Of a DNA stretch of 64,000 bases, positions 6,222 to 47,672 are shown piece by piece. Numbering within the stretch: position 1 is the stretch's first letter; the number at the start of each line of letters is the position of its first letter. Origin of the DNA: Sphingobium sp. SYK-6 (lineage in GTDB: Bacteria > Pseudomonadota > Alphaproteobacteria > Sphingomonadales > Sphingomonadaceae); assembly GCF_000283515.1 (NCBI RefSeq), contig NC_015976.1, positions 1,364,001 to 1,428,000 on the forward strand, read 5' to 3'. The notes beneath the pieces are model-generated. The model saw nothing but the letters and a program-made list of their open reading frames with translations. It did not search any database and was not told where the DNA came from. The position numbers and the translations under genes are program-made.

Positions 6222-7697
6222 ATGTCATTTCCCGCGACCCCGGACTATACCGGCCTCAACAAGCCGGTAGGCCAGGAAGTCTCGATCAAGGGCCTGAAGG
6301 CGAGCGAGGGCACGATTCCCGCAGATGTGCGCGGCGCATTCTTCCGGGCCGTGCCCGATCCGCAGTTCCCGCCTTTCTTCCATCCGGACACCGCACTTTC
6401 CGACGACGGCATGATCAGCCGGGTGCTCTTCAACGCGGACGGCACCGTGGACTATGACATCCGCTATGTGCAGACGCCGCGCTGGAAAGCGGAGCGCGCC
6501 GCGGGCAAGCGCCTGTTCGGGCGCTATCGCAATCCCTACACCAATGACCCTTCCGCTTTCGACCTCGAGGGCACCGTCTCCAACACGACGCCGGTCTGGC
6601 ATGCCGGCAAGCTCATCATGACCAAGGAGGATGGCCCGGGCCATCAGGTCGATCCGCATACGCTGGAGACCATCGGCGCCTATGATTTCGGCGGCGTCCT
6701 GCGATCGAAGACGATGACGGCGCATGTCCGCGTCGATCCCGAAACGAAGGAGATGTTCGTCTATGGCTATGAGGCGGACGGGCTCTGCTCGAAGACCATG
6801 GCCTACTGGTGGACGGACCGGGACGGCAAGCTGGTGAAGGAGCAATGGTTCGAGGCGCCGTTCTGCAGCCTCGTCCACGACTTCGTCATTACCGAAAATT
6901 ACGCGATCTTCCCGCTGCAGCCCACCACGGCCGACCTGGAGCGTGTGAAGGGCAAAGGCGCCCACTGGGTGCACCAGCAGGACCTCGACTATCATGTCGG
7001 CATCATGCCCCGCTATGGCGACGTCTCACAGATCCGCTGGTTCAAGGGCCCCAAGGGCATGTCCAGCTTCCACATGATGAATGCCTTCGAGACCGACGAC
7101 GGCAAGGTCCACATGGACCATCATGTCACGGACACGATCGCTTTCCCCCACATTCAGGCGGACAGCGGCATCAATGTCCCGCCCCAGATGCTGGGCGGCG
7201 GCTTCCAGCGCTGGATCATGGACATGAAGGGCGACGGCGAGAGCGTGGCAGTGACGCCGCTCGGCCCTCCGGGAGACATGCCGCGCATCGCCGATGCCGA
7301 TCAGGGCCGGCCCTACCGGCGCGGCTGGTATTGCAGCATGAATCCCCAGCCCATGGGGCCGCCGGTGATGGGCGGCGTGGTCGGCGTCATGTTCTCGGCC
7401 CTGCTGCGCAAGGATTTCGAGACGGGCGAGATCGTCGGCTACAACCTGCCGCCGGCGCACGGCATGAGCGAGACCGTCCACGTTCCCGCCAGCGAACCCG
7501 GCCATGAGGGCTGGCTGATCGCGGTGGTCGATCACCAGCTCGGGCCGGACACATTCGAGCATGCGCTGTGGATCTGGAATGCGGGCGATCTGCCCGCCGG
7601 GCCGGTCGCCAAGGTGCCCGTGCCCACGCGCATGCGGCCGCAGGTCCATGGCTGGTGGGTGCCGATGGCAGATTACGAGGCGGCGCGGGCGGCCTAG
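6222..7697 (+). CDS. lsdA: Lignostilbene alpha,beta-dioxygenase family protein (lsdA position)
   Basis: 491 aa, carotenoid cleavage oxygenase family; these enzymes split the interphenyl double bond of lignin-derived stilbenes to two aldehydes. The four iron-binding histidines are H168 (TAHVRVDP), H219 (LVHDFVITENY), H284 (SFHMMNAFE) and H476 (QVHGWWVPM). The tyrosine and lysine that hold the 4-hydroxyl in the NOV1 structure (Y101, K134) correspond to Y102 and K135. The NOV1 Phe59 position is Leu here, which may change substrate fit. It is last in ligK-ligU-ligI-lsdA, 65 bp after ligI, with GGAGAG ahead of the ATG. A REP-type hairpin follows. Confidence 0.92.
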   Translation: MSFPATPDYTGLNKPVGQEVSIKGLKASEGTIPADVRGAFFRAVPDPQFPPFFHPDTALSDDGMISRVLFNADGTVDYDIRYVQTPRWKAERAAGKRLFGRYRNPYTNDPSAFDLEGTVSNTTPVWHAGKLIMTKEDGPGHQVDPHTLETIGAYDFGGVLRSKTMTAHVRVDPETKEMFVYGYEADGLCSKTMAYWWTDRDGKLVKEQWFEAPFCSLVHDFVITENYAIFPLQPTTADLERVKGKGAHWVHQQDLDYHVGIMPRYGDVSQIRWFKGPKGMSSFHMMNAFETDDGKVHMDHHVTDTIAFPHIQADSGINVPPQMLGGGFQRWIMDMKGDGESVAVTPLGPPGDMPRIADADQGRPYRRGWYCSMNPQPMGPPVMGGVVGVMFSALLRKDFETGEIVGYNLPPAHGMSETVHVPASEPGHEGWLIAVVDHQLGPDTFEHALWIWNAGDLPAGPVAKVPVPTRMRPQVHGWWVPMADYEAARAA

Positions 7698-21340: not shown

Positions 21341-21381
21341 ACGAAATTTTCGTTTGTGTAACATACAAAAATTCGTATGTT
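21341..21381. promoter_or_regulatory. Probable DesR operator upstream of ligM
   Basis: Two dyads lie here: ACGAAA-T-TTTCGT at 21341-21353 and AACATAC-N8-GTATGTT at 21360-21381. A 21-bp segment at 21348-21368 (TTTCGT..G.GTA.CATACAA) matches the minus-strand reading of 39017-39037 upstream of the second lignostilbene dioxygenase at 17 of 21 positions. This region is AT-rich against its surroundings and sits about 80 bp before ligM, right for a MarR operator. In SYK-6 ligM-metF-ligH is known to be DesR-controlled; binding at this exact spot is inferred. Confidence 0.65.
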
Positions 21382-21456: not shown

Positions 21457-22875
<1,419 letters not shown>

Positions 22876-23102: not shown

Positions 23103-23999
<897 letters not shown>

Positions 24000-24084: not shown

Positions 24085-25761
24085 ATGGCACAAGGCTCCG
24101 ATATCGAGATCGCCCGCGAAGCGAAGATGCAGAATATCGCGGAGGTCGGCGCGAAAGTCGGCATCCCGCAGGACGCGCTGCTGAACTACGGCCCCTACAA
24201 GGCCAAGCTGAGCTGGGACTTCATCAACAGCGTTCAGGGCAACCAGGACGGCAAGCTGATCCTCGTCACCGCGATCAACCCGACGCCGGCCGGCGAAGGC
24301 AAGACCACGACCACCGTGGGCCTGGCCGACGGCCTCAACCGCATCGGCAAGAAGACCGTGGCGGCGCTGCGCGAGCCTTCGCTCGGCCCCTGTTTCGGCG
24401 TGAAGGGCGGCGCGGCCGGCGGCGGCTATGCGCAGGTCGTGCCGATGGAGGACATCAACCTTCACTTCACCGGTGACTTCCATGCCATCACCTCGGCGAA
24501 CAACCTGCTCGCCGCGCTGATCGACAACCACATCTACTGGGGCAACAAGCTCGGCCTCGATCCGCGCCGCATCGCATGGCGCCGCGTGCTCGACATGAAC
24601 GACCGGGCGCTGCGCTCGATCGTCAATTCGCTGGGCGGCGTCTCGAATGGCTATCCGCGCGAGGACGGCTTCGACATCACCGTGGCTTCGGAAGTCATGG
24701 CGATCCTGTGCCTTTCCTCGGACCTCAAGGACCTCGAGCGGCGCCTCGGCAACATCCACGCCGGCTACACGCGCGAGCGCAAGGCCGTGCTGGCCAGCGA
24801 GCTGAATGCCTCGGGCGCCATGACCGTGCTGCTCAAGGACGCGCTGCAGCCGAACATGGTGCAGACGCTGGAGAATAATCCGGTGCTCATCCATGGCGGC
24901 CCGTTCGCGAACATCGCGCATGGCTGCAACTCGGTGCTCGCCACCAAGACCGCGCTCAAGATCGCCGATTATGTGGTGACGGAAGCCGGCTTCGGTGCCG
25001 ACCTGGGTGCGGAGAAGTTCTTCGACATCAAATGCCGCAAGGCGGGCCTCAAGCCCTCGGCCGCAGTGATCGTGGCGACGATCCGCGCGCTCAAGATGCA
25101 TGGCGGCGTCGACAAGGCCGATCTCGGCACGGCGAACCCGGAGGCGGTCCGCAAGGGCGGCGTCAATCTCGCTCGCCACATCGAGAATGTCCGCCAGTTC
25201 GGCGTGCCGGTGGTGGTCGCGATCAACCAGTTCATCACGGACACCGACGAGGAAATGGCCATGGTGAAGGAAATCGCCGAGGCCGCGGGCGCCGAGGCGG
25301 TACTGTGCAGCCACTGGGCCAACGGCTCGGCCGGCACCGAGGAACTGGCGCGCAAGGTCGTCGCGCTCGCCGAGAGCGGTTCGTCCAACTTCGCGCCGCT
25401 CTATGAAGACAGCATGCCGCTGTTCGAGAAGATCGACACGATCGCCAAGCGCATCTACCGCGCGACCGAGGCGACGGCGGACAGCAGCGTGCGCAACAAG
25501 CTCAAGGGCTGGGAAGCGGACGGCTTCGGCCATCTGCCGGTCTGCATGGCCAAGACGCAGTACAGCTTCTCGACCGACCCGGCGCTGCGCGGCGCCCCGA
25601 CCGACCATGTCGTGCCCGTGCGCGACGTGATCCTCTCGGCCGGCGCGGAGTTCATCGTGGCGGTCTGCGGCGACATCATGCGCATGCCCGGCCTGCCCAA
25701 GGTCCCCTCGGCAGACTTCATCAAGCTCGACGAGCAGGGCCAGATCCAGGGCCTGTTCTGA
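24085..25761 (+). CDS. ligH: Formate-tetrahydrofolate ligase, LigH
   Basis: 558 aa. Interconverts 10-formyl-THF with formate and THF at the cost or gain of ATP; in aromatic demethylation it releases formate, regenerating THF for LigM. The P-loop [18 protein letters not shown] is clear, along with [48 protein letters not shown] and [25 protein letters not shown]. Third gene of ligM-metF-ligH. A strong hairpin terminator follows at 25818. The formate it makes is the substrate of the fds operon at 41865-47530. Confidence 0.97.
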
Positions 25762-37524: not shown

Positions 37525-38994
37525 TCAGGCGGCGAGGCCGATCTCCTCGGCATTGGCCCAGTTGCCGTGCAGACCGAAGCGCAGCGCGAAGGGCAGGTGA
37601 ACCGTCGCGACCGGGCCTTTCTCGATGTCCAGTGCCTCGAAGATCAGCAGGTCGCTCTTGTGGTCGGCCAGGCGATTGCAGACCTGTACGATCCAGCCAT
37701 CGCCTTCCGGCGCATCCTTGCTGCGCGGGATGAAGGCGGGCTCCTGCAGCGAGGAAGTGGGGCCGCACCACCAATGCTGCTCGGCGCCGGTCTGGTGATC
37801 CTTGAGGAACAGGCAGTTCATCAGGAAGCCGCCCGCGCTGCCGCCCTTGAGTTCCACCGGGCGCTTCATGTCCATTTCCAGCATCCAGCCGTAGCGATAA
37901 GGCAGGCCGGTCATGCGATCATCGATGCGCGGGAACTCGCCCGCCGTCTCGGTGAGGCGCGTGACGCTGTCGAACTCGTCGCTGTTGGATGCCATGTCCA
38001 CCGTCCAGCGGGTGAGCCGGCTCATTGCCTGCTGCGGATTGAACGGCGCGCCGTGGACGTCCGGGAAGAAGGGGAACATGTTGTTCTCCGCCTCGGGCAC
38101 GTCGACATGGACTTTCGTGCCTTCCTGGAAGGCATTCATCACATGGCTGGCGAAGCAGTTCTCCCGCTTGAACCAGCGGATGTCCTCCTGCTTGAGGTCC
38201 GCGCGGCGCGGAATGATGCCGAGATAGACCGGCAGGGTGGTGTCGAAGCCGAAGTGCGGCAGGCCCTTCTCCAGCCGGTCCCAGCTGCCGATGCTCGGCA
38301 CGATGTGCAGGACCAGATAGTCCTTCGTCACGCCGAAATCATGCATCATGCAGTAATAGGGGACCTTGAACCACGCCTCGTAGATCAGCTCGCCGTCCGG
38401 GGAGATTTCATAGAGGCACACATCGTCCGTGCACAGGCCGCTGGCCGCATAACCGATGGCGACCATGTTGCCGGTGAGCGGATCGACCTTGGGATGGGCT
38501 GTGAAGGTCTGGCCGGTCATCTTGCCGCCGAACTTCTCGAAGCCGAAAGTCTCCATCGTCGCCGGGTCCATGGTCAGCGAGGGGCTGTCCTCCTTCATCG
38601 CCCAGAGCTTGCCGGCGAAGACGAAGGCATTGGTGTTCGCGGTGGAGCGATACTCGCCCTTGACGGACTCGTCATCGGTCAGCGGATTGCGATAGGAGCC
38701 GAACAGGGCCTTGCCGGCGGCGTTCTCCAGCTTCCACTTGTTCGTCTTCGCCCAGCGCTGCTTGATGTCGCACTGTCCATCGTGGATGTGGAAGCGCGTG
38801 ATCATGCCGTCGCCGTTGAAGCTGATGTCGTCGCCCAGCCGCGGCGGGAATTGCGGGTCCGGCTGGACACGGAAGAAGGCGCCGTTCAGCTCCGGCGGGA
38901 TCGTGCCCTCATGCACCAGGTTCGGAATGTCGCACTCGATGCGCGAAGGGGCGTTGAAGCCGGTGAAGGCAGGGGTGTCGGGAAAATGTGCCAT
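37525..38994 (-). CDS. Lignostilbene alpha,beta-dioxygenase (NOV1-like)
   Basis: 489 aa from ATG 38994, with GAGAGGAG before it. All known NOV1 residues fall at the same numbers: F59, Y101, K134 in the substrate pocket and iron-binding H167 (TFTAHPKV), H218 (CMMHDFGV), H284 (FASHVMNAFQ) and H476 (FGLHGNW). It therefore cleaves 4-hydroxystilbenes to aromatic aldehydes such as vanillin, using Fe(II) and O2. It differs from LsdA at 6222 by retaining Phe59. It heads a leftward run with DUF3237 and a flavin enzyme, and divides a promoter with the desR-like regulator. Confidence 0.95.
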   Translation of the reverse strand: MAHFPDTPAFTGFNAPSRIECDIPNLVHEGTIPPELNGAFFRVQPDPQFPPRLGDDISFNGDGMITRFHIHDGQCDIKQRWAKTNKWKLENAAGKALFGSYRNPLTDDESVKGEYRSTANTNAFVFAGKLWAMKEDSPSLTMDPATMETFGFEKFGGKMTGQTFTAHPKVDPLTGNMVAIGYAASGLCTDDVCLYEISPDGELIYEAWFKVPYYCMMHDFGVTKDYLVLHIVPSIGSWDRLEKGLPHFGFDTTLPVYLGIIPRRADLKQEDIRWFKRENCFASHVMNAFQEGTKVHVDVPEAENNMFPFFPDVHGAPFNPQQAMSRLTRWTVDMASNSDEFDSVTRLTETAGEFPRIDDRMTGLPYRYGWMLEMDMKRPVELKGGSAGGFLMNCLFLKDHQTGAEQHWWCGPTSSLQEPAFIPRSKDAPEGDGWIVQVCNRLADHKSDLLIFEALDIEKGPVATVHLPFALRFGLHGNWANAEEIGLAA

Positions 38995-39016
38995 GGCTTG
39001 CTCCTCTCGCAAGTAA

Positions 39017-39050
39017 TTGTATGCTACGCTTACGAAATCGACAAATTTCG
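39017..39050. promoter_or_regulatory. Probable DesR-type operator between lsd and desR
   Basis: The 21-bp element 39017-39037, read on the minus strand, gives TTTCGT..G.GTA.CATACAA, matching the ligM upstream element at 17 of 21 positions. A dyad CGAAAT-N6-ATTTCG overlaps it at 39033-39050. It lies 22 bp before the dioxygenase ATG and about 40 bp before the regulator start, in position to control both. Confidence 0.6.
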
Positions 39051-39079
39051 GCTTCGGGTCAAGGAGGCTGCGGCGAGTC

Positions 39080-39613
39080 TTGGGGGAAAGAGAGTTGGAA
39101 GCAAGAGATAGACAGCATCTGGTTCAGGCCGCCGGCCTTGAATGCGCGGACGACGCGCAAGCTCGTCCCGCGCGCGCCGCGACGATCGAGGACCAGGGCG
39201 TCGGCGCGATCGACGACATCATCGGCTTCCATATCCGCCTCGCGCACGGCGCGACCTACCGTCACTTCACGGAAACCTTCAGCGAGCTGGGCCTCACCCA
39301 GAAGATGGTGTCGGTCCTCTGGCTGATCGACGATCATCCGCACATCGCCCAGGCCGACATCGGGCGGCGCCTGCAGATGGACCGCGCGACGACCATGGCG
39401 ATCGTGAATCGGCTGGAAGCGCGGGGCCTGCTGGTGCGCGGCGCATCGACGCTCGACCGGCGCCGGCAGACGCTGACGCTGACCGATGACGGGCACGCGG
39501 CGCTCCTCGAGGCGCGCCGCTGCATCGACGCGCACGAATATTGGCTGAAATCCCGCTTCACCAAGCGCGAAGCAACGTTGCTCATTGAGCTGTTGCGCCG
39601 TATCCACGAATAG
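39080..39613 (+). CDS. desR: MarR-family regulator, probable DesR (TTG start)
   Basis: About 177 aa. MarR winged helix: FSELGLTQKMVSVLWLIDDHPHIAQADIGRRLQMDRATTMAIVNRLEARGLLVRGASTLDRRRQTLTLTDDG, with the DxRR wing. In SYK-6 DesR (SLG_12870) represses ligM-metF-ligH and other vanillate/syringate genes, with vanillate and syringate as inducers; the place here, before pcaK, is the same. No ATG is available at the domain edge: TTG at 39080 (with AAGGAGG 12 bases upstream) or TTG at 39095 are the options. An operator-like element lies just before it. Confidence 0.82.
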   Translation: MGERELEARDRQHLVQAAGLECADDAQARPARAATIEDQGVGAIDDIIGFHIRLAHGATYRHFTETFSELGLTQKMVSVLWLIDDHPHIAQADIGRRLQMDRATTMAIVNRLEARGLLVRGASTLDRRRQTLTLTDDGHAALLEARRCIDAHEYWLKSRFTKREATLLIELLRRIHE

Positions 39614-39672: not shown

Positions 39673-41019
39673 ATGTCCGCAACGGATCCACGTGAGATCA
39701 TCAACGATTCGCCCATGTCGGTCCGGCAATGGATCGTCGTGGTGCTGATGATCTTGCTCAACGCGCTGGACGGCTTCGACGTCCTGTCGAGCGCGTTCGC
39801 GGCACCCGGCATCTCGCAGGAATGGGGCATTCCCCGCTCTGAACTGGGCGTCGTGCTTTCCGCCGAGCTGGTCGGCATGGGCTTCGGCTCGGTGCTGCTG
39901 GGCGGGCTGGCCGACAAGGCGGGCCGCAAGCTGGCCATGCTGCTTTGCCTCTTCGTCATGGCCATCGGCATGTACATGGCCCATGCGGCGGGCGATGTGT
40001 GGACCCTGACGGTCTGGCGCTTCATCACCGGCCTCGGCATCGGTGGCATGCTGGCCGCGACCAACGCGGTCGTCGCCGAATCGACCAGCAAGGCATCGCG
40101 CAGCGTGGCGATGGCGCTCTACGTCATCGGCTATCCGCTCGGCGGCGTGATCGGCGGCTTCGCGGCGCAGAGCTGGCTGCTGGTCGATTATGACTGGCGC
40201 GCGGTCTTCATGTTCGGCGCGGTGGTCACGGCCGTGATGATCCCGCTCGTCTTCCTGCTGGTGCCCGAGACGCCGGCCTTCTACGCGGCCCGCAGGCCGG
40301 AAGGCGCGGTCGAGAAGATCAATCGCTCGCTGCGCACGCTGCGCCAGCGCACCATCGAGGCATTGCCGCCGCTGAAGCTCGAAGGCCCGCAGCCCAAGGT
40401 GACGGACATCCTGTCCCGTCCCGGCCTGCGCTCGGTGACCTGGCTGCTTGCGTTCGGCTACATGTTCCACACGCTGACTTTCTATTACGTCCTGAAGTTC
40501 GCCGTGCAGATCGTCGCGGACTCCGGCTTCACGCAGGCGCAGGCCGCCAGCACGCTCACCTGGGCGAATGTCGGCGGTGCCATCGGGGGCGCGCTGTTCG
40601 GCTTCCTGCTCAAGAAGTGGGACATCAAGGGCCCGACCATCGCGATGCTGCTGCTGGGCGTCTGCGCGGTCGCCTGGTTCGGCAGCGGGCATGGCGATCT
40701 TGCCGCGTGGCGCTTTGCCGGCTTCCTGTCGATGTTCTTCCTCAATGCCGCGATCGTGGGTTATTACGCCGCCTTCGCGCGCGGCTTCCCCGCTTATGCG
40801 CGCGCGACGGGCACCGGCTTCGTGCTGGGCATCGGCCGGGCGGGCGCGGCGGGATCGCCGATTATCGCCGGCTTCCTGTTCGATGCGCTGGGCAAGGAGC
40901 AATTGCTGACAGTGTCGGTCATCATGAGCCTGGGTTCGGTCATGGCCGTGTTCATGCTGCTGTTCCTGCCGATGCGGGATGGCGACGCGGCGGCGGCTGT
41001 TACGGCTGCCGGCAAGTAA
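39673..41019 (+). CDS. pcaK: Aromatic acid:H+ symporter, PcaK-like (protocatechuate uptake)
   Basis: 448 aa, MFS of the AAHS family: LLNALDGFDVLSSAFAAPGI (DGFD motif), GFGSVLLGGLADKAGRK between helices 2 and 3, and 12 predicted membrane segments. In SYK-6 the PCA transporter PcaK is encoded by the gene next to desR, matching here. It starts 60 bp after the regulator and is convergent with fdhD. It would supply PCA directly to the ligAB-ligC-ligI-ligJ-ligU-ligK pathway. Confidence 0.86.
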   Translation: MSATDPREIINDSPMSVRQWIVVVLMILLNALDGFDVLSSAFAAPGISQEWGIPRSELGVVLSAELVGMGFGSVLLGGLADKAGRKLAMLLCLFVMAIGMYMAHAAGDVWTLTVWRFITGLGIGGMLAATNAVVAESTSKASRSVAMALYVIGYPLGGVIGGFAAQSWLLVDYDWRAVFMFGAVVTAVMIPLVFLLVPETPAFYAARRPEGAVEKINRSLRTLRQRTIEALPPLKLEGPQPKVTDILSRPGLRSVTWLLAFGYMFHTLTFYYVLKFAVQIVADSGFTQAQAASTLTWANVGGAIGGALFGFLLKKWDIKGPTIAMLLLGVCAVAWFGSGHGDLAAWRFAGFLSMFFLNAAIVGYYAAFARGFPAYARATGTGFVLGIGRAGAAGSPIIAGFLFDALGKEQLLTVSVIMSLGSVMAVFMLLFLPMRDGDAAAAVTAAGK

Positions 41020-41101: not shown

Positions 41102-41899
41102 TCAGTGCCCTGCGGTGACGCGCAGCACTTCGTCCGGCCGGGCCAGCGCATAGAGGCTGAGGCCCGCCGCCTGCGCCCGCGCCGCCGCCATGCTGGTCGG
41201 CACGGAAATGGTGACGAGCATGGTCGCGCCGGCGCGCACGCTTTTCTCGACGATCTCGTAACTGCACCGCGCGGTGGAGAGGATGAAGCCCTCCGCCATC
41301 GGCTGGCCTGCGCGCGCCATGGCGCCGACCAGCTTGTCCAGCGCATTGTGCCGCCCGACATCCTCGCGCACCGCCACGATCGCGCCGTCCGGCGCCACGA
41401 AGGCAGCGGCATGCATGCCGCCCGTCGCGCGGTTGCCGGGCTGATGGTCGCGAAGCGCCTCCAGCGCGCGGAAGATGGCGGCCGGGGCGATCGGCGCGTG
41501 CGGCGGCACGGGGGGCAGGGGCTTGGCGATCGCTTCCAGATTGTCGATGCCGCACAGGCCGCAGCTTGATTCGGCGACGCGCGAGCGCACGCGGGCCTGC
41601 AGCGTCTCCAGAGCCAGCGAAGTGATGGTGGCGCGCGCGATCCAGCCCTTGTCCGTCTCGGCAAGGTCGATGCCGGTGACGTCTGTGGCGGTGGGCGCCA
41701 GCCCTTCGGTCAGTGCGAAGCCGGTGACGAAATCCTCCAGATCGCTGGGACTCGCCATCATCACGGCATAGGAAAGGCCGTTATATTCGAGCGCGACCGG
41801 AATCTCCGGCGCGAACGGCCGTTTGACGTGGCGGCTGGACCCGTCCGGCCGAAGGGCGACGAGGTCAGCCGGCGTCGTTATAGCCAGGATCGTTCTCAT
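41102..41899 (-). CDS. fdhD: Formate dehydrogenase accessory sulfurtransferase, FdhD
   Basis: 265 aa. FdhD carries sulfur from a cysteine desulfurase to the molybdenum cofactor of formate dehydrogenase. The active-site loop is SSCGLCGIDN (CxxC), and VREDVGRHNALDKLVGA and STARCSYEIVEKSVRAGATMLV are family signatures. It overlaps the end of fdsD by 35 bases, so the start may lie slightly downstream. Last gene of the leftward fds operon; convergent with pcaK. Confidence 0.93.
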   Translation of the reverse strand: MRTILAITTPADLVALRPDGSSRHVKRPFAPEIPVALEYNGLSYAVMMASPSDLEDFVTGFALTEGLAPTATDVTGIDLAETDKGWIARATITSLALETLQARVRSRVAESSCGLCGIDNLEAIAKPLPPVPPHAPIAPAAIFRALEALRDHQPGNRATGGMHAAAFVAPDGAIVAVREDVGRHNALDKLVGAMARAGQPMAEGFILSTARCSYEIVEKSVRAGATMLVTISVPTSMAAARAQAAGLSLYALARPDEVLRVTAGH

Positions 41900-42146: not shown

Positions 42147-45002
42147 TTACTCCGCTGCTTCAGCCGTGAGGCTGGCCACGATCCGCCGTGAGCGCTCGGA
42201 CCAGCTGTTGTAATCCTCCTGCCAGTCGGTCGGGCCATTGGACGGCGTGATCTGCACGGCCGTCACCTTGTATTCGGGGCAGTTGGTGGCCCAGTCCGAA
42301 TATTCGGTGGTGACGACATTGGCTTGCGTCGCGGGGTGGTGGAAGGTGGTGTAAACCACGCCTGGCGCAACGCGCTCCGTGATCGTCGCCCGCAGCGTCG
42401 TCTCGCCGGTGCGGCTGGAGAGCTTCACCCAGTCGCCATCCTTGAGGCCGCGATTCTCGGCATCGGTCGGGTGGATTTCCAGCAGATCCTCGGGGTGCCA
42501 GGCCGTGTTGCCGGTGCGCCGGGTCTGCGCGCCGACATTATACTGGCTGAGGATGCGCCCGGTGGTGAGCAGCAGCGGGAAGCGCGGGCCGGTCTTCTCG
42601 TCGGTCGGCACATAATCGGTGACGACGAACTTGCCCTTGCCGCGCACGAAGCCATCGACGTGCATGATCGGCGAGCCTTCATGCGTGTCGTCCTTGACCG
42701 GCCATTGCAGCGATCCCTCGCGCTCCAGACGCGCCCAGGAAACACCCGCGAAGGACGGGGTAAGACGCGCGATCTCGGCGAGGATCTCGCTAGGATGGGT
42801 GTAGGTCCAGCCCAGATCGAGCGCATTGGCGAGCAACTGCGTGACTTCCCAGTCGGCATAGCCGTTGGCGGGTTCCATCACCTTGCGGACCGGCTGAATG
42901 CGCCGCTCGGCATTGGTGAAGGTGCCGTCCTTCTCGAGGAAGGTGGAGCCGGGCAGGAAGATGTGCGCGTAGTTCGCCGTTTCGTTCAGGAAGAGGTCCT
43001 GAACGATGACGCATTCCATGGCCTTGAGGCCAGCCGCGACGTGCACGGTGTTGGGGTCGGACTGGAGAATATCCTCGCCCTGAATGTAAATCGCGCGGAA
43101 CGAGCCATCGAGTGCGGCATCCAGCATGTTGGGGATGCGCAGGCCCGGCTCGGAATCGAGCGTGACGCCCCAATCCGCTTCGAAAAGCTTGCGCGTCTCT
43201 TCATCGCTGATGTGGCGATAGCCCGAGAGCTCGTGCGGGAAGCTGCCCATGTCGCAGGCGCCCTGCACATTGTTCTGGCCGCGCAGCGGGTTCACACCCA
43301 CGCCGCGGCGGCCGATATTGCCGGTCACCATGGCGAGGTTGGCAATCGCCATCACGGTCGAGCTGCCCTGGCTGTGCTCCGTGACGCCAAGGCCATAATA
43401 GATGGCGCCATTGCCGCCGGTCGCGAACAGGCGAGCCGCGCCGCGCAGTTCCTCGGCGGGCACGCGGGTGACCGGCTCCAGAACCTCGGGGCTGTTGCGC
43501 TCCTGCGAAACAAAGGCCGCCCAGTCCTGATACTCGTCCCAGTCGCAGCGCTCGCGGATGAACGCTTCGTCGGCCAGGCCTTCGGTCACGATCACATGCG
43601 CCATGGCGGTGAGCACGGCGACGTTGGTGCCGGGCTGCAGCGCGAGATGGTGCTGCGCCTCGATATGTGGCGACTTGACCATGTCGGTGCGGCGGGGATC
43701 GATAACGATCAGCCTGGCGCCCTGACGCAGCCGGCGCTTCATGCGGCTCGCGAACACCGGGTGGCCGTCCGTCGGGTTGGCACCGATGATCAGGATCACG
43801 TCGCTGTCCATCACGCTGTCGAAATCCTGCGTGCCGGCGGACGTGCCGAAGGTGGTCTTCAGGCCATAACCGGTCGGCGAGTGGCAGACGCGCGCGCAGG
43901 TATCCACATTGTTCGCGCCGAAGCCGGCACGGATCAGCTTCTGGACGAGGAACGTCTCCTCATTGGTGCAGCGCGAGGAAGTGATGCCGCCCAGCGCGCG
44001 GGCGCCATGCTCGGCCTTGATGCGCTTGAGCTCGGACGCGGCATAGCTGATCGCTTCTTCCCAGCTCACCACTTGCCAGGGATCGTCCACGGACTTGCGG
44101 ATCATCGGCTCGGTGATGCGGTCCTGATGGTTGGCATAGCCCCAGGCGAAGCGGCCCTTGACGCAGCTGTGGCCGCGATTGGCCTTGCCGTCCTTCCAGG
44201 GAACCATGCGCACGAGCTGTTCGCCGCGCATCTCGGCGCGGAACGTGCAGCCCACGCCGCAATAAGCGCAGGTGGTGACGACGGCGCGCTCGGGCTTGCC
44301 GATCTCGCGCATCGTCTTTTCCTGCAGCGTGCCGGTGGGGCAGGCCTGCACGCAGGCGCCGCAGGAGACGCACTCGGAGGAGAGGAAATCGTCGCTGGCA
44401 ACGCCGGCGGACACCATGGAGCCGAAGCCCCGGCCCTCGATGGTCAGGGCGAACGTGCCCTGCACCTCGTCACAGGCGCGCACGCAGCGCGAGCAGACGA
44501 TGCACTTGGACGGATCGAAATCGAAATAGGGATTGGACTCGTCGGTCGCGAGACCGAGATGGCTGTCGCCCTCATAGCCGTACCGCACGTCGCGCAGGCC
44601 CACGGCGGCGGCATTGTCCTGCAGCTCGCAATCGCCATTGTCCGAGCAGGTGAGGCAATCGAGCGGGTGATCGGAGATGTAGAGCTCCATCACGCCCTTG
44701 CGCAGCTTCTGCAGGCGTGGAGTCTGCGTGTGGACGTTCATCCCTTCCATGGCGGGCGTGGTGCAGCTTGCCGGGGTGCCGCGCATGCCGTCCACTTCCA
44801 CCAGGCACAGGCGGCAGGAGCCGAAGCTCTTCACATTGTCCGTGGCGCACAGCTTGGGGATGGAGCCGCCGCATTCGGCGGCCGCGCGCATCACGCTCGT
44901 GCCCTCGGGCACGGTGACCGAGCGCCCGTCAATGGTCAGGGTGACCAGCTTCTCCGATGTGGAGGCGGGAGTTCCGAAGTCGGCTTGCGGTTCATAGCCC
45001 AT
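42147..45002 (-). CDS. fdsA: Formate dehydrogenase alpha subunit, molybdenum catalytic chain, FdsA
   Basis: 951 aa. Oxidises formate to CO2 at a bis-MGD molybdenum. N-terminal 2Fe-2S (CGGSIPKLC, CRLCLVEV), the DCLTCSDNGDCELQ block, two 4Fe-4S clusters (CIVCSRCVRAC; CVSCGACVQAC), a further cluster CAYCGVGC, then the molybdopterin domain. The Mo ligand is Cys373 followed by His374 (DTCARVCHSP), so it is a cysteine rather than selenocysteine enzyme. Most likely start is ATG 45002 (GAGAGAG nine bases upstream), not the TTG three codons earlier. It removes the formate made by LigH, yielding NADH through FdsB. Confidence 0.97.
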   Translation of the reverse strand: MGYEPQADFGTPASTSEKLVTLTIDGRSVTVPEGTSVMRAAAECGGSIPKLCATDNVKSFGSCRLCLVEVDGMRGTPASCTTPAMEGMNVHTQTPRLQKLRKGVMELYISDHPLDCLTCSDNGDCELQDNAAAVGLRDVRYGYEGDSHLGLATDESNPYFDFDPSKCIVCSRCVRACDEVQGTFALTIEGRGFGSMVSAGVASDDFLSSECVSCGACVQACPTGTLQEKTMREIGKPERAVVTTCAYCGVGCTFRAEMRGEQLVRMVPWKDGKANRGHSCVKGRFAWGYANHQDRITEPMIRKSVDDPWQVVSWEEAISYAASELKRIKAEHGARALGGITSSRCTNEETFLVQKLIRAGFGANNVDTCARVCHSPTGYGLKTTFGTSAGTQDFDSVMDSDVILIIGANPTDGHPVFASRMKRRLRQGARLIVIDPRRTDMVKSPHIEAQHHLALQPGTNVAVLTAMAHVIVTEGLADEAFIRERCDWDEYQDWAAFVSQERNSPEVLEPVTRVPAEELRGAARLFATGGNGAIYYGLGVTEHSQGSSTVMAIANLAMVTGNIGRRGVGVNPLRGQNNVQGACDMGSFPHELSGYRHISDEETRKLFEADWGVTLDSEPGLRIPNMLDAALDGSFRAIYIQGEDILQSDPNTVHVAAGLKAMECVIVQDLFLNETANYAHIFLPGSTFLEKDGTFTNAERRIQPVRKVMEPANGYADWEVTQLLANALDLGWTYTHPSEILAEIARLTPSFAGVSWARLEREGSLQWPVKDDTHEGSPIMHVDGFVRGKGKFVVTDYVPTDEKTGPRFPLLLTTGRILSQYNVGAQTRRTGNTAWHPEDLLEIHPTDAENRGLKDGDWVKLSSRTGETTLRATITERVAPGVVYTTFHHPATQANVVTTEYSDWATNCPEYKVTAVQITPSNGPTDWQEDYNSWSERSRRIVASLTAEAAE

Positions 45003-45558
45003 GGCGTTCAACTCTCTCGAGGTCAGCAGCGGTGTTTATGTTAACAGGTTCGCGCGCCAGTTGCACGGCACGCGCTCCAATGCGGGATGCGAAGGCCTTC
45101 ATGGAATGGGTTCCGTTCCCGTCCAGTATCGCGAGCGCGTCGGCGGCCGCCGCGGCTGGCCAGAGGCCGATGACCGGCAGGCTCTCCACATAAGCTGGGT
45201 AAGGGAACAGGCGCTTCAAGAGGTCTTGCGGCAAGTCGATGGCATCGCACGGCACGCTCAGCACGGCCGGCAAGCCACGCGCCTGCGCTTCGAGCAGCGC
45301 GGCGGCCAGGCCACCGAGCGGGCCCATGCCGGCGGCGGGCTGGTCCGGAACGGCGGACGCCCCGTCATGCGTGCGGCCGCAGACGATGACCTGTCCGCAA
45401 TGAGCGGCCAGATTGTCCAGGGCATGATCGATGAGCGGGCGGCCCTGAAAGCGGGCGAGCGCCTTGTCGCTGCCGAAGCGCGTCGACCTGCCGCCAGCGA
45501 TCACGGCGCCGAGCACGGCGCTGCGATCGATACCGAGCAGGCCGGCGCAGCAGCTCAT
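44992..45558 (-). CDS. mobA: Molybdenum cofactor guanylyltransferase, MobA
   Basis: 188 aa. Adds GMP to molybdopterin to make the guanine dinucleotide cofactor needed by FdsA. N-terminal GAVIAGGRSTRFGSDKALARFQG is the nucleotidyltransferase signature; VPCDAIDLP and NINTAADLERVE follow. It begins four bases inside fdsB and ends ten bases inside fdsA, so ribosomes probably pass straight from fdsB to mobA to fdsA. In the usual fds operons fdsA follows fdsB directly; the insertion gives cofactor synthesis in step with the apoenzyme. Confidence 0.92.
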   Translation of the reverse strand: MSCCAGLLGIDRSAVLGAVIAGGRSTRFGSDKALARFQGRPLIDHALDNLAAHCGQVIVCGRTHDGASAVPDQPAAGMGPLGGLAAALLEAQARGLPAVLSVPCDAIDLPQDLLKRLFPYPAYVESLPVIGLWPAAAAADALAILDGNGTHSMKAFASRIGARAVQLAREPVNINTAADLERVERHGL

Positions 45559-47096
45559 TCGGCCGCTTCCGCCATGCGGGTCACGCCGAAATCCTCCGGC
45601 CAGTGACGCAGTGCGCTCAGCACCGGATAAGGCGTGAAGCCGCCGAGCGCGCAGAGCGAGCCGAACTTCATCGTCTCGCACAGATCCTCGAGCAGCGTGA
45701 TCTCGTCTTCCAGCGCGCGGGCGCCGCGCGGCGCATTGTGCATCTGGGGGAGAGCCTCCACCGTATCGCGTCCGCGCGGCGCACGGGCGAGGATGCGGTC
45801 GATCAGTTCCTTGCCGCGCGTCGAGCCGATGCGGCAGGGCGTGCACTTGCCGCAGCTTTCCACCGCGCAGAATGCCATGGCGAAGCGGGCCATTCCGGCC
45901 AGATCGGCGGTATCGTCGAACACGCAGATGCCGCCATGGCCGATCAGCGCGTCGACAGCGGCATAAGCTTCATAATCGAAGGGAATGTCGAACTGGTCGG
46001 GGTGGATATAGGCGCCGAGCGGGCCGCCGACCTGCACCGCCTTCACCGGGCGTCCGCTGGCCGTGCCGCCGCCGATCTCGTTGACGAGCGTGCCGAGCGA
46101 GATGCCGAAGGCCGTCTCGAACAGGCCGCCATGCTTCACATTGCCCGCGAGCTGGATCGGCATGGTCCCGCGCGAGCGGCCGAGCCCGTAATCGGCATAG
46201 AATGTCGCGCCATCCGCCAGGATGTGCGTCACCGCGCAGAGCGACAGGAGATTGTTGACCACGGTGGGCTTGCCGAACAGGCCCTCCAGCGCGGGCAGCG
46301 GCGGCTTGGCGCGCACTTCGCCGCGCTTGCCTTCCAGGCTGTTGAGCAGCGAGGTTTCCTCGCCGCAGACATAGGCGCCGGCGCCCTCGCGCACTTCCAG
46401 ATGGAACGGCGCGATGATGTGGGCGCTCTTGTGGATCGCCTGCTCAAGCTTGGCGATGGCGTGCGGATATTCGGAGCGGACGTAGATATAGCCCTTGCTC
46501 GCGCCCACCGCGAAGCCGGCGATCGCCATGCCCTCGATGAGCTGGTAGGGGTCGCCCTCCATGATCATGCGATCGGCGAATGTCGCGCTGTCGCCTTCGT
46601 CGGCATTGCAGACGATATATTTCTGATCCGCCCTGGCAGCGGCGACGGTGCGCCACTTGATGCCGGTGGGGAAGCCCGCGCCGCCGCGACCGCGCAGGCC
46701 GGACGCCACCACTTCCTCGATCGTCGCTTCCGGGCCCAGCTCGCGTGCGCGGCCCAGCCCCTTCCAGCCATCGGTCGCCTCATAGTCATCGAGGCTGAGC
46801 GGGCGCGTCTTGCCGGCGCGTGCGAAGGTCAGGCGCTGCTGCGCGACAATGAAGGGATGCGCCGCGACCGGCCCGACGCAGAGCGCGTCCGCGCCGCCAT
46901 CAAGGATGGCCTGCACGTCGGCCGGCGTCACGGGGCCGAAGCCGACGCCATTCACTTCCACCAGCGGTTCCAGCCAGTGCATGCCCCAGCTCGACACGCG
47001 CTCCACGGCGGCGCCGGCTTTCTCGAACGCAGCGGCGACGTCGTCCGCGCCGCAGGCAATCGCCAGCGCGTCATCGGAAATGCGCACCGTCGTCAT
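45555..47096 (-). CDS. fdsB: Formate dehydrogenase beta subunit, NADH/FMN chain, FdsB
   Basis: 513 aa, NuoF-like. N-terminal thioredoxin-like region, then FMN/NAD site GLRGRGGAGFPTGIKW, the CNADEGDSATFADRMIMEGDPYQLIEG block, GAYVCGEETSLLNSLEGKRGE, and the 4Fe-4S motif ESCGKCTPCRIGSTRG. It passes electrons from FdsA clusters to NAD+. The ATG at 47096 overlaps the fdsG stop, and its own stop overlaps mobA. Same leftward operon as fdsG and fdsA. Confidence 0.95.
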   Translation of the reverse strand: MTTVRISDDALAIACGADDVAAAFEKAGAAVERVSSWGMHWLEPLVEVNGVGFGPVTPADVQAILDGGADALCVGPVAAHPFIVAQQRLTFARAGKTRPLSLDDYEATDGWKGLGRARELGPEATIEEVVASGLRGRGGAGFPTGIKWRTVAAARADQKYIVCNADEGDSATFADRMIMEGDPYQLIEGMAIAGFAVGASKGYIYVRSEYPHAIAKLEQAIHKSAHIIAPFHLEVREGAGAYVCGEETSLLNSLEGKRGEVRAKPPLPALEGLFGKPTVVNNLLSLCAVTHILADGATFYADYGLGRSRGTMPIQLAGNVKHGGLFETAFGISLGTLVNEIGGGTASGRPVKAVQVGGPLGAYIHPDQFDIPFDYEAYAAVDALIGHGGICVFDDTADLAGMARFAMAFCAVESCGKCTPCRIGSTRGKELIDRILARAPRGRDTVEALPQMHNAPRGARALEDEITLLEDLCETMKFGSLCALGGFTPYPVLSALRHWPEDFGVTRMAEAAE

Positions 47097-47530
47097 CACG
47101 CCATCTCCCCGATCAGGGCCGTCAGCTTCGCGCTGTCCAGCCGGGCATGGACGGTCTTGCCGACCATCGCATTGGGGCCGACAGTGCACAGGCCGAGGCA
47201 GTAAACGGTCTCAACCGCCACGCGATCGCCCGCTGCAGCCTCCGCCGCGCCTACGAGCGTCTCGACGCCGCGCGACTTGCAGGCTTCCGCCCGGCAGAGC
47301 TTGAGTACCGGCTTGCCTGCCGGCTCGCTGCGGAAATCATGATAGAAGCTCACCACGCCATGCACTTCGGCGCGGCTGAGATTCAGCGCGCCGGCGATCC
47401 GCCGCTTGGCTTCCTCGCTGACATGACCGAACTCGGCCTGGATGTCGTGCAGGATGGGAAGGAGAGGGCCTTCGCGGCTGCTATGGCTCGCAATGATCTC
47501 GTCCAGCCGGTCGGCCTTGCCGTCATTCAC
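47096..47530 (-). CDS. fdsG: Formate dehydrogenase gamma subunit, 2Fe-2S chain, FdsG
   Basis: 144 aa, NuoE-like. Four Fe-S cysteines: CRAEACKSRG (two) and YCLGLCTVGPN (two). LLPILHDIQAEFGHVSEEA is the family N-terminus. First gene of fdsG-fdsB-mobA-fdsA-fdsD-fdhD. An AT-rich region with a possible DesR-related element lies 25-45 bases upstream of its ATG. Confidence 0.95.
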   Translation of the reverse strand: MNDGKADRLDEIIASHSSREGPLLPILHDIQAEFGHVSEEAKRRIAGALNLSRAEVHGVVSFYHDFRSEPAGKPVLKLCRAEACKSRGVETLVGAAEAAAGDRVAVETVYCLGLCTVGPNAMVGKTVHARLDSAKLTALIGEMA

Positions 47531-47554: not shown

Positions 47555-47575
47555 CGTAAAATTCGTTTGTCTTAC
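47555..47575. promoter_or_regulatory. Possible DesR-related element upstream of fdsG
   Basis: ATTCGTTTGT at 47561-47570 repeats the TTCGTTTGT core of the ligM operator region (21349-21357) exactly, within an AT-rich stretch between fdsG and the Hpt gene. Over 21 bp the match to ligM is 14 positions. Formate is a product of the DesR-controlled C1 route, so shared control would make sense, but the match is weaker than the ligM/lsd pair. Confidence 0.35.
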
Positions 47576-47672
47576 TGCCTATTTTTTGCGCCGCTGGCAA
47601 GGGCAAAGCGCAGCATCGCGCCGGGATGTTGCTGCGCGAAACGCTGCGGAATCGGGGCGGCGGAAGGCGTGC

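Follow-up and report, generated by a model that had tools for sequence, protein, structure and literature searches.

DesR of Sphingobium sp. SYK-6 is a MarR-type repressor for which three operators have been described: IR-M at ligM, IR-B at desB and IR-R at SLG_12860/desR (PMC6888825). Gel shifts showed that DesR binds IR-M and IR-R, with residual binding to probes in which one half was altered; ligM, desB and desR are repressed by it, and for the regions of all three genes DesR binding is described, with release from DNA by vanillate or syringate (PMC6888825). In that strain ligM, metF and ligH form an operon with metF as the second gene, and the regulon, as given in the accessible parts of the report, consists of ligM-metF-ligH, desB and desR, without lsdD, fds, frmA or fghA (PMC6888825). 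A related regulator, Saro_0803 of Novosphingobium aromaticivorans, belongs to the same NCBIfam family as DesR and its neighbour Saro_0802 is NOV1/LsdD; however, its reported effector is resveratrol, its inverted repeat is GCAATA/TATTGC, and the accessible text mentions no ligM or one-carbon target (PMC10046596). In lignin-dimer catabolism of N. aromaticivorans, formaldehyde from stilbene formation goes to FdhA, a glutathione-dependent dehydrogenase, and formylglutathione hydrolase followed by formate dehydrogenase are proposed as the next steps; in contrast with the SYK-6 work, DesR has no occurrence in the accessible text of that paper, which names no regulator for these genes (PMC11323797). 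In the open-access literature, as far as it was available to us, we found no report of fds or lsdD under DesR control, or of DesR binding at fdsG.

The window, which is the whole stretch of 64,000 nucleotides (64 kb) of the SYK-6 genome analyzed here, contains the ligM operon, the divergent lsdD and desR genes, and the fds genes for formate dehydrogenase (Table 1). The MarR gene was identified as desR because the published operators, their distances and the identity of SLG_12860 with lsdD all fit, and its start was placed at the TTG codon because this gives the published IR-R distance. The fdsB name comes from gene order and the two Pfam domains, no NCBIfam model scoring above its cut-off. The MFS transporter gene adjoins desR in many relatives too. 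A Saro_0803-type protein distinct from DesR was considered for the MarR gene and rejected, as IR-R, by both its location and its sequence, and the order of the genes agree with desR. A second lsd paralogue is found in the window at 6228-7661.

Table 1. Genes and putative regulatory sites in the 64-kb window of Sphingobium sp. SYK-6. Positions count from the first base of the window.
Feature	Position	Strand	Details
DesR operator upstream of ligM	21348..21368	+	core IR-M GTTTGTGTAACATAC at 21352-21366; exact against published IR-M
ligM, vanillate/3-O-methylgallate O-demethylase	21460..22875	+	NF047885, 921 bits (cut-off 580)
metF, methylenetetrahydrofolate reductase	23133..23999	+	PF02219
ligH, formate-tetrahydrofolate ligase	24085..25761	+	NF010030, 920 bits (cut-off 652)
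lsdD, lignostilbene dioxygenase	37525..38994	-	ATG at 38994; NF053778, 871 bits (cut-off 800); SLG_12860
DesR operator between lsdD and desR	39017..39037	-	exact against published IR-R
IR-R core GTATGCTACGCTTAC	39019-39033	+	76 to 62 nt before the desR start
desR, MarR-type repressor	39095..39613	+	TTG start, 172 aa; PF12802; NF053777, 236.6 bits (cut-off 200)
MFS transporter adjoining desR	39673..41019	+	PF07690
fdhD, formate dehydrogenase accessory protein	41102..41899	-	PF02634
fdsA, formate dehydrogenase alpha subunit	42147..45011	-	TIGR01591, 924 bits (cut-off 666)
fdsB, formate dehydrogenase beta subunit (NuoF-like)	45555..47189	-	PF01512 and PF10589
fdsG, formate dehydrogenase gamma subunit	47096..47530	-	PF01257; NF004638, 172.7 bits, below cut-off 198
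Conserved fdsG-promoter block with DesR-like half-site	47559..47589	-	21-mer at 47562-47582

An earlier note on this DNA had pointed to a motif, TTTCGT..G.GTA.CATACAA, upstream of ligM and reversed between lsdD and desR, and both positions and the identity of 17 of 21 bases between the copies were confirmed. When up to three mismatches were allowed, these were the only two matches in the window, and two matches were obtained in none of 100 shuffles. The genome-wide motif search suggested in the same note was run over the whole 4.35 Mb with the 20-mer TTTCGTNNGNGTNNCATACA, which showed three perfect matches: the ligM site, the lsdD/desR site and C1:342100-342119. There was no match at one or two mismatches and there were 19 at three; the reversed control gave 15 in all. 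The pattern was taken from these sites, therefore the perfect matches arise partly by construction, but the empty one- and two-mismatch classes do not. The third match covers IR-B, of which an exact copy (GTTTGTGTCACATAC) lies outside the window at C1:342101-342115, and the three published operators were found letter for letter, with the same genes as described (PMC6888825).

The distances published for IR-M and IR-R, measured from the start codons and, for IR-M, from the start site of ligM, also agree in the genome. The published ligM start site corresponds to C21392, 68 nt ahead of the ATG, and IR-M spans -40 to -26 relative to it. The lsdD ATG is about 25 bp from IR-R. The motif shared by ligM and lsdD/desR is the published DesR operator and the pair is already known biology; the DesR-like MarR regulator that the earlier note proposed for these sites is desR itself, as published for ligM and desR (PMC6888825). 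A consensus match alone does not name the binding protein, and in principle the motif could belong to a different MarR-type regulator with desR as a bystander. This is extremely improbable, since DesR was identified for these exact sequences by gel shifts and by mutant data (PMC6888825) and the DesR-type site and desR co-occur across genomes. Through the lsdD/desR site DesR would also repress lsdD. Stilbene cleavage in vanillate-grown cells is said, at second hand, to depend on lsdD. In the ligM promoter, an extra TTCGTATGT half-site at 21372-21380 forms with the right half of IR-M a perfect ACATAC-N8-GTATGT repeat (21361-21380), lying 12 to 31 bp ahead of the start site mapped for ligM.

Conservation of the operator was analyzed in 298 genomes of the family, divided by the presence (42) or absence (256) of a DesR homologue at an E value of 1e-25 or lower. 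The lsdD-desR gap of the relatives shows a recurrent site of the form ATTGTATGCTNCACTAACAAT. A symmetric 21-bp matrix was built from 16 distinct training sites from 25 lsdD-desR loci, all outside the own genus, a set which includes one spurious site (L091, -1.3 bits, on a stretch cut short) and one weak site (L081). With this matrix IR-M, IR-R and IR-B score 28.6, 27.2 and 20.8 bits, respectively. In the 400 bp upstream of ligM, a site of at least 24.4 bits was present in all 30 loci scanned (28 outside the own genus and two within it), LigM being matched at E 1e-100 in 39 genomes altogether; as controls, none of 90 coding windows reached 17 bits, and of 1200 shuffles two did so. At E 1e-180, a ligM orthologue was found in 38 of the 42 desR-bearing genomes versus one of the 256 desR-lacking genomes. 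The LigM genomes number 38 at this threshold and 39 at E 1e-100 because the match in G185 is a fragment at a contig end. The lone desR-lacking genome with ligM (G034) has no DesR-type site on its 4.8-kb contig (best 0.4 bits). Furthermore, among 80 named loci, some of them from the same genomes, all 50 in which lsdD and desR are divergent carry the site between the two genes, and all nine with enough sequence upstream of ligM carry it no more than 250 bp from that gene; N. aromaticivorans DSM 12444 is not part of this set. As judged by sequence comparison, the longer 20-bp site and its family-wide conservation are new relative to Araki et al. 2019.

The relation of DesR to Saro_0803 was studied at the level of protein family and putative ligand pocket. 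Nine of the ten homologues scanned score above the cut-off of 200 of NF053777, the family of Saro_0803, and the tenth is a distant second copy. Mutation of F30, F43, F47 and W61 of Saro_0803 cut resveratrol binding (PMC10046596). These four ligand residues correspond to F45, F58, F62 and W76 of DesR, which are invariant in 21 of 21 aligned homologues; the residues were paired by sequence pattern, with the same offset of 15 throughout, Saro_0803 itself being outside the alignment. Neither half of the GCAATA/TATTGC repeat was found in 38995-39095. Because the pocket residues are invariant and full release of DesR in vitro needed up to 50 mM vanillate (PMC6888825), these comparisons suggest that stilbenes could be a tighter DesR ligand than vanillate. 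The family assignment, the matching residues and the high vanillate concentration would also agree with DesR being primarily a stilbene sensor of lsdD, as reported for Saro_0803, and vanillate a weak secondary signal. We consider this possible, although rather doubtful: vanillate and syringate induce ligM, desB and desR in vivo and do so in the desA ligM mutant as well (PMC6888825), the site upstream of ligM is conserved as well as that of lsdD, and a DesR-type site lies upstream of a vanA-like Rieske oxygenase gene (PF19112) beside desR in L272:4839-5933 and L194:1892-2978, the first of them in a genome (G057) with no LigM match at E 1e-100.

The earlier note had also placed a core of the motif before fdsG. 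The sequence ATTCGTTTGT does occur there, at 47561-47570, and nowhere else in the window (at least one occurrence was obtained in 5 of 100 shuffles). However, it is not the core of the other two sites: the ligM promoter carries TTTCGTTTGT, identical at 9 of 10 positions. A common core of fdsG and ligM was thus rejected, as ATTCGTTTGT is absent from both the ligM and the lsdD sites. The sequence common to the ligM and fdsG promoters is TTCGTWTGT, with three occurrences on both strands of the window (21349, 21372 and 47562). As a full DesR operator, the fdsG site TTCGTTTGTCTTACTGCCTAT falls well short, with 10.7 bits versus 28.6 for IR-M and 27.2 for IR-R, and its halves are unequal, one good (9.3 bits) and one poor (0.6 bits).

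It has slightly better than an even chance that in SYK-6 this half-site is due to coincidence or to the core promoter, and that DesR targets only ligM-metF-ligH, desB, desR and probably lsdD. Besides the poor second half, the half-site score was also reached by 417 of 5000 promoter shuffles and at 13 places in the window, and is not significant alone. The site has three mismatches to the symmetric consensus, and with up to three mismatches allowed the genome holds no more matches than the control (53 and 53 per strand). In addition, fds is convergent with desR in SYK-6, so that there would be no read-through from desR into fds. On the other side, the fdsG block remains recognizable in six of seven close genomes including SYK-6 (5.6 to 12.7 bits) despite diverged flanks, the 31 bp around the site are identical in G076, and strong sites are found at the same place in other genera. 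The seventh close genome (L288) shows a decayed block (-4.0 bits). Among the close genomes, some blocks show TTCGTTTGTGTTAC, nearer to IR-M, and others TTCGTATGT; this A/T interchange between TTCGTTTGT and TTCGTATGT is the same swap as in true DesR half-sites. Conservation of the block may, alternatively, be caused by the fdsG core promoter. From these sequence features we give DesR control of fds in SYK-6 about one chance in three.

The formaldehyde and formate genes of the relatives show a stronger association with DesR. fdsB was found in 41 of the 42 desR-bearing genomes; among the 256 desR-lacking ones, 59 carry it at E 1e-150. In 26 of the 42, desR, the MFS gene, frmA, fghA and fds are consecutive on one strand, with fdsG undetected in G065 and fdsA off the stretch in G270; lsdD is divergent beside desR in 25 of these 26 and missing in G213. 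In L241, frmA and fghA correspond to TIGR02818 and TIGR02821, respectively. As the layout is colinear in these 26 genomes, transcription from the desR promoter could extend into the one-carbon genes, and one of the 26 (L262) has an additional site of 31.3 bits directly before frmA. The other desR-bearing genomes comprise seven with fds apart and a site, four apart and without a site, two with convergent fds and a weak site, and three that were left out of the count (G193 is divided among contigs, the contig of G135 is of insufficient length, and G057 lacks fds).

Of the 13 genomes in which fds is separate from desR or reversed, seven have a site of at least 17 bits before frmA or fdsG: G235 (28.5 bits), G111 (29.4 and 28.2), G050 (24.5), G185 (21.9), G228 (24.1), G296 (27.5) and G265 (17.7). 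The sequence upstream of fdsG was scanned first in 30 of the 41 genomes, and the cases apart from desR were then added separately. No 17-bit site was found in G002, G195, G075 and G025, the best near the genes being 8.6 bits in G002 and 12.4 in G195; further sequence scanned in G195 gave no site (best 3.5 bits), and the result for G025 covers only about 1.4 kb upstream of fdsG. The remaining two, SYK-6 and G076, have the weak fdsG site. In the 59 desR-lacking loci no 17-bit site was found in up to 5 kb upstream of fdsB, 276 kb in total (best 15.0 bits), nine of these stretches being shorter than the 5.2 kb sought owing to contig ends and four of the nine under 1.1 kb. The difference between 7 of 13 and 0 of 59 loci gives a Fisher p of about 1e-6, which overstates the evidence because genomes of one family are not independent. 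Only four of 25 fds loci from named genomes show at least 17 bits (L291, 17.2; L295, 28.2; L301, 28.2; L308, 26.5); one of the 25 is the G075 genome, and another, the eighth close genome L306, has no fdsG on its stretch. In addition, three genomes that belong to a single genus have a DesR-type site between fdsB and mobA/fdsA (L238:1803, L239:1843 and L281:1035).

The proposal of the earlier note that formate disposal belongs to the regulon was therefore borne out in part: in many relatives a DesR-type site precedes the formaldehyde and formate oxidation genes or belongs to what looks like one operon with them, versus none of the 59 desR-lacking loci, but the SYK-6 fdsG site reaches only 10.7 bits. 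Judged from the genomes, there is good support for placing formate disposal in the DesR regulon of relatives; in SYK-6 it is a candidate member. As far as the accessible open-access literature shows, the formaldehyde/formate extension of the regulon is new.

Taken together, it is very probable that the motif is the DesR operator at ligM and at lsdD/desR, likely controlling lsdD too at the latter, and we predict the weak fdsG copy to be a degenerate DesR site belonging to a formaldehyde/formate branch which has strong DesR-type sites in related bacteria. Since the same type of site precedes the formaldehyde and formate genes of relatives, one repressor likely coordinates lignin breakdown and one-carbon disposal. 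Methoxyl groups removed by LigM would pass to folate and then to formate, and lignostilbene formation would release formaldehyde; we therefore propose that the disposal enzymes are induced by the same signal. In relatives with desR, MFS, frmA, fghA and fds on one strand, control of the one-carbon genes would be exerted by read-through from the desR promoter, and where fds lies apart, through its own DesR site. In SYK-6, fds would be under weak DesR control at most. This predicts that the vanillate regulator of one strain and the resveratrol regulator of another are a single type of protein sharing one operator type and a wider regulon, including toxic one-carbon waste, and names promoters in relatives for direct test. 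It would be relevant to the engineering of sphingomonads on methoxylated lignin, whose breakdown gives formaldehyde and formate.

A broader reading has, in our view, a little under an even chance: DesR and Saro_0803 would be one ancestral MarR repressor, with a single invariant aromatic pocket sensing both lignostilbenes and vanillate, which across the Sphingomonadaceae jointly induces stilbene cleavage, O-demethylation, one-carbon steps on folate (purU, metF) and formaldehyde/formate oxidation. The SYK-6 lineage, with its fds genes oriented towards desR, would retain only a worn DesR site at the fdsG promoter. If this reading is true, lignin methoxyl carbon would be burned as fast as it is released.

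Further candidate targets were found with the same matrix. In L177:1038-2887, purU, which codes for formyl-THF deformylase, and a metF-like gene are divergent and have a DesR-type site between them; in L255 one such site lies between purU and ligM. In SYK-6, an aldehyde dehydrogenase-like gene (C1:1303679-1305103) has a site of 16.7 bits (C1:1305123-1305143) some 20 bp upstream, and the scores at its homologues are 13.0 and -4.6 bits in two close cases and -2.8 in a third, distant one; another of 15.8 bits (C1:4067457) is near a phosphomannomutase-like gene. Both genes were named by reading the proteins and not by family search, and from their sequence the two sites are weak leads to additional SYK-6 DesR targets. 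In N. aromaticivorans, a deletion primer near Saro_1233/4 (ligAB2) contains a 17.6-bit stretch that may span the primer junction (PMC8091115). SYK-6 desA is controlled by a regulator other than DesR (PMC6888825). Finally, strong DesR-type sites are observed in L135:4314-5784 and L165:4476-5930 upstream of a gene whose product shares about 50% identity with LigM and which may be desA.
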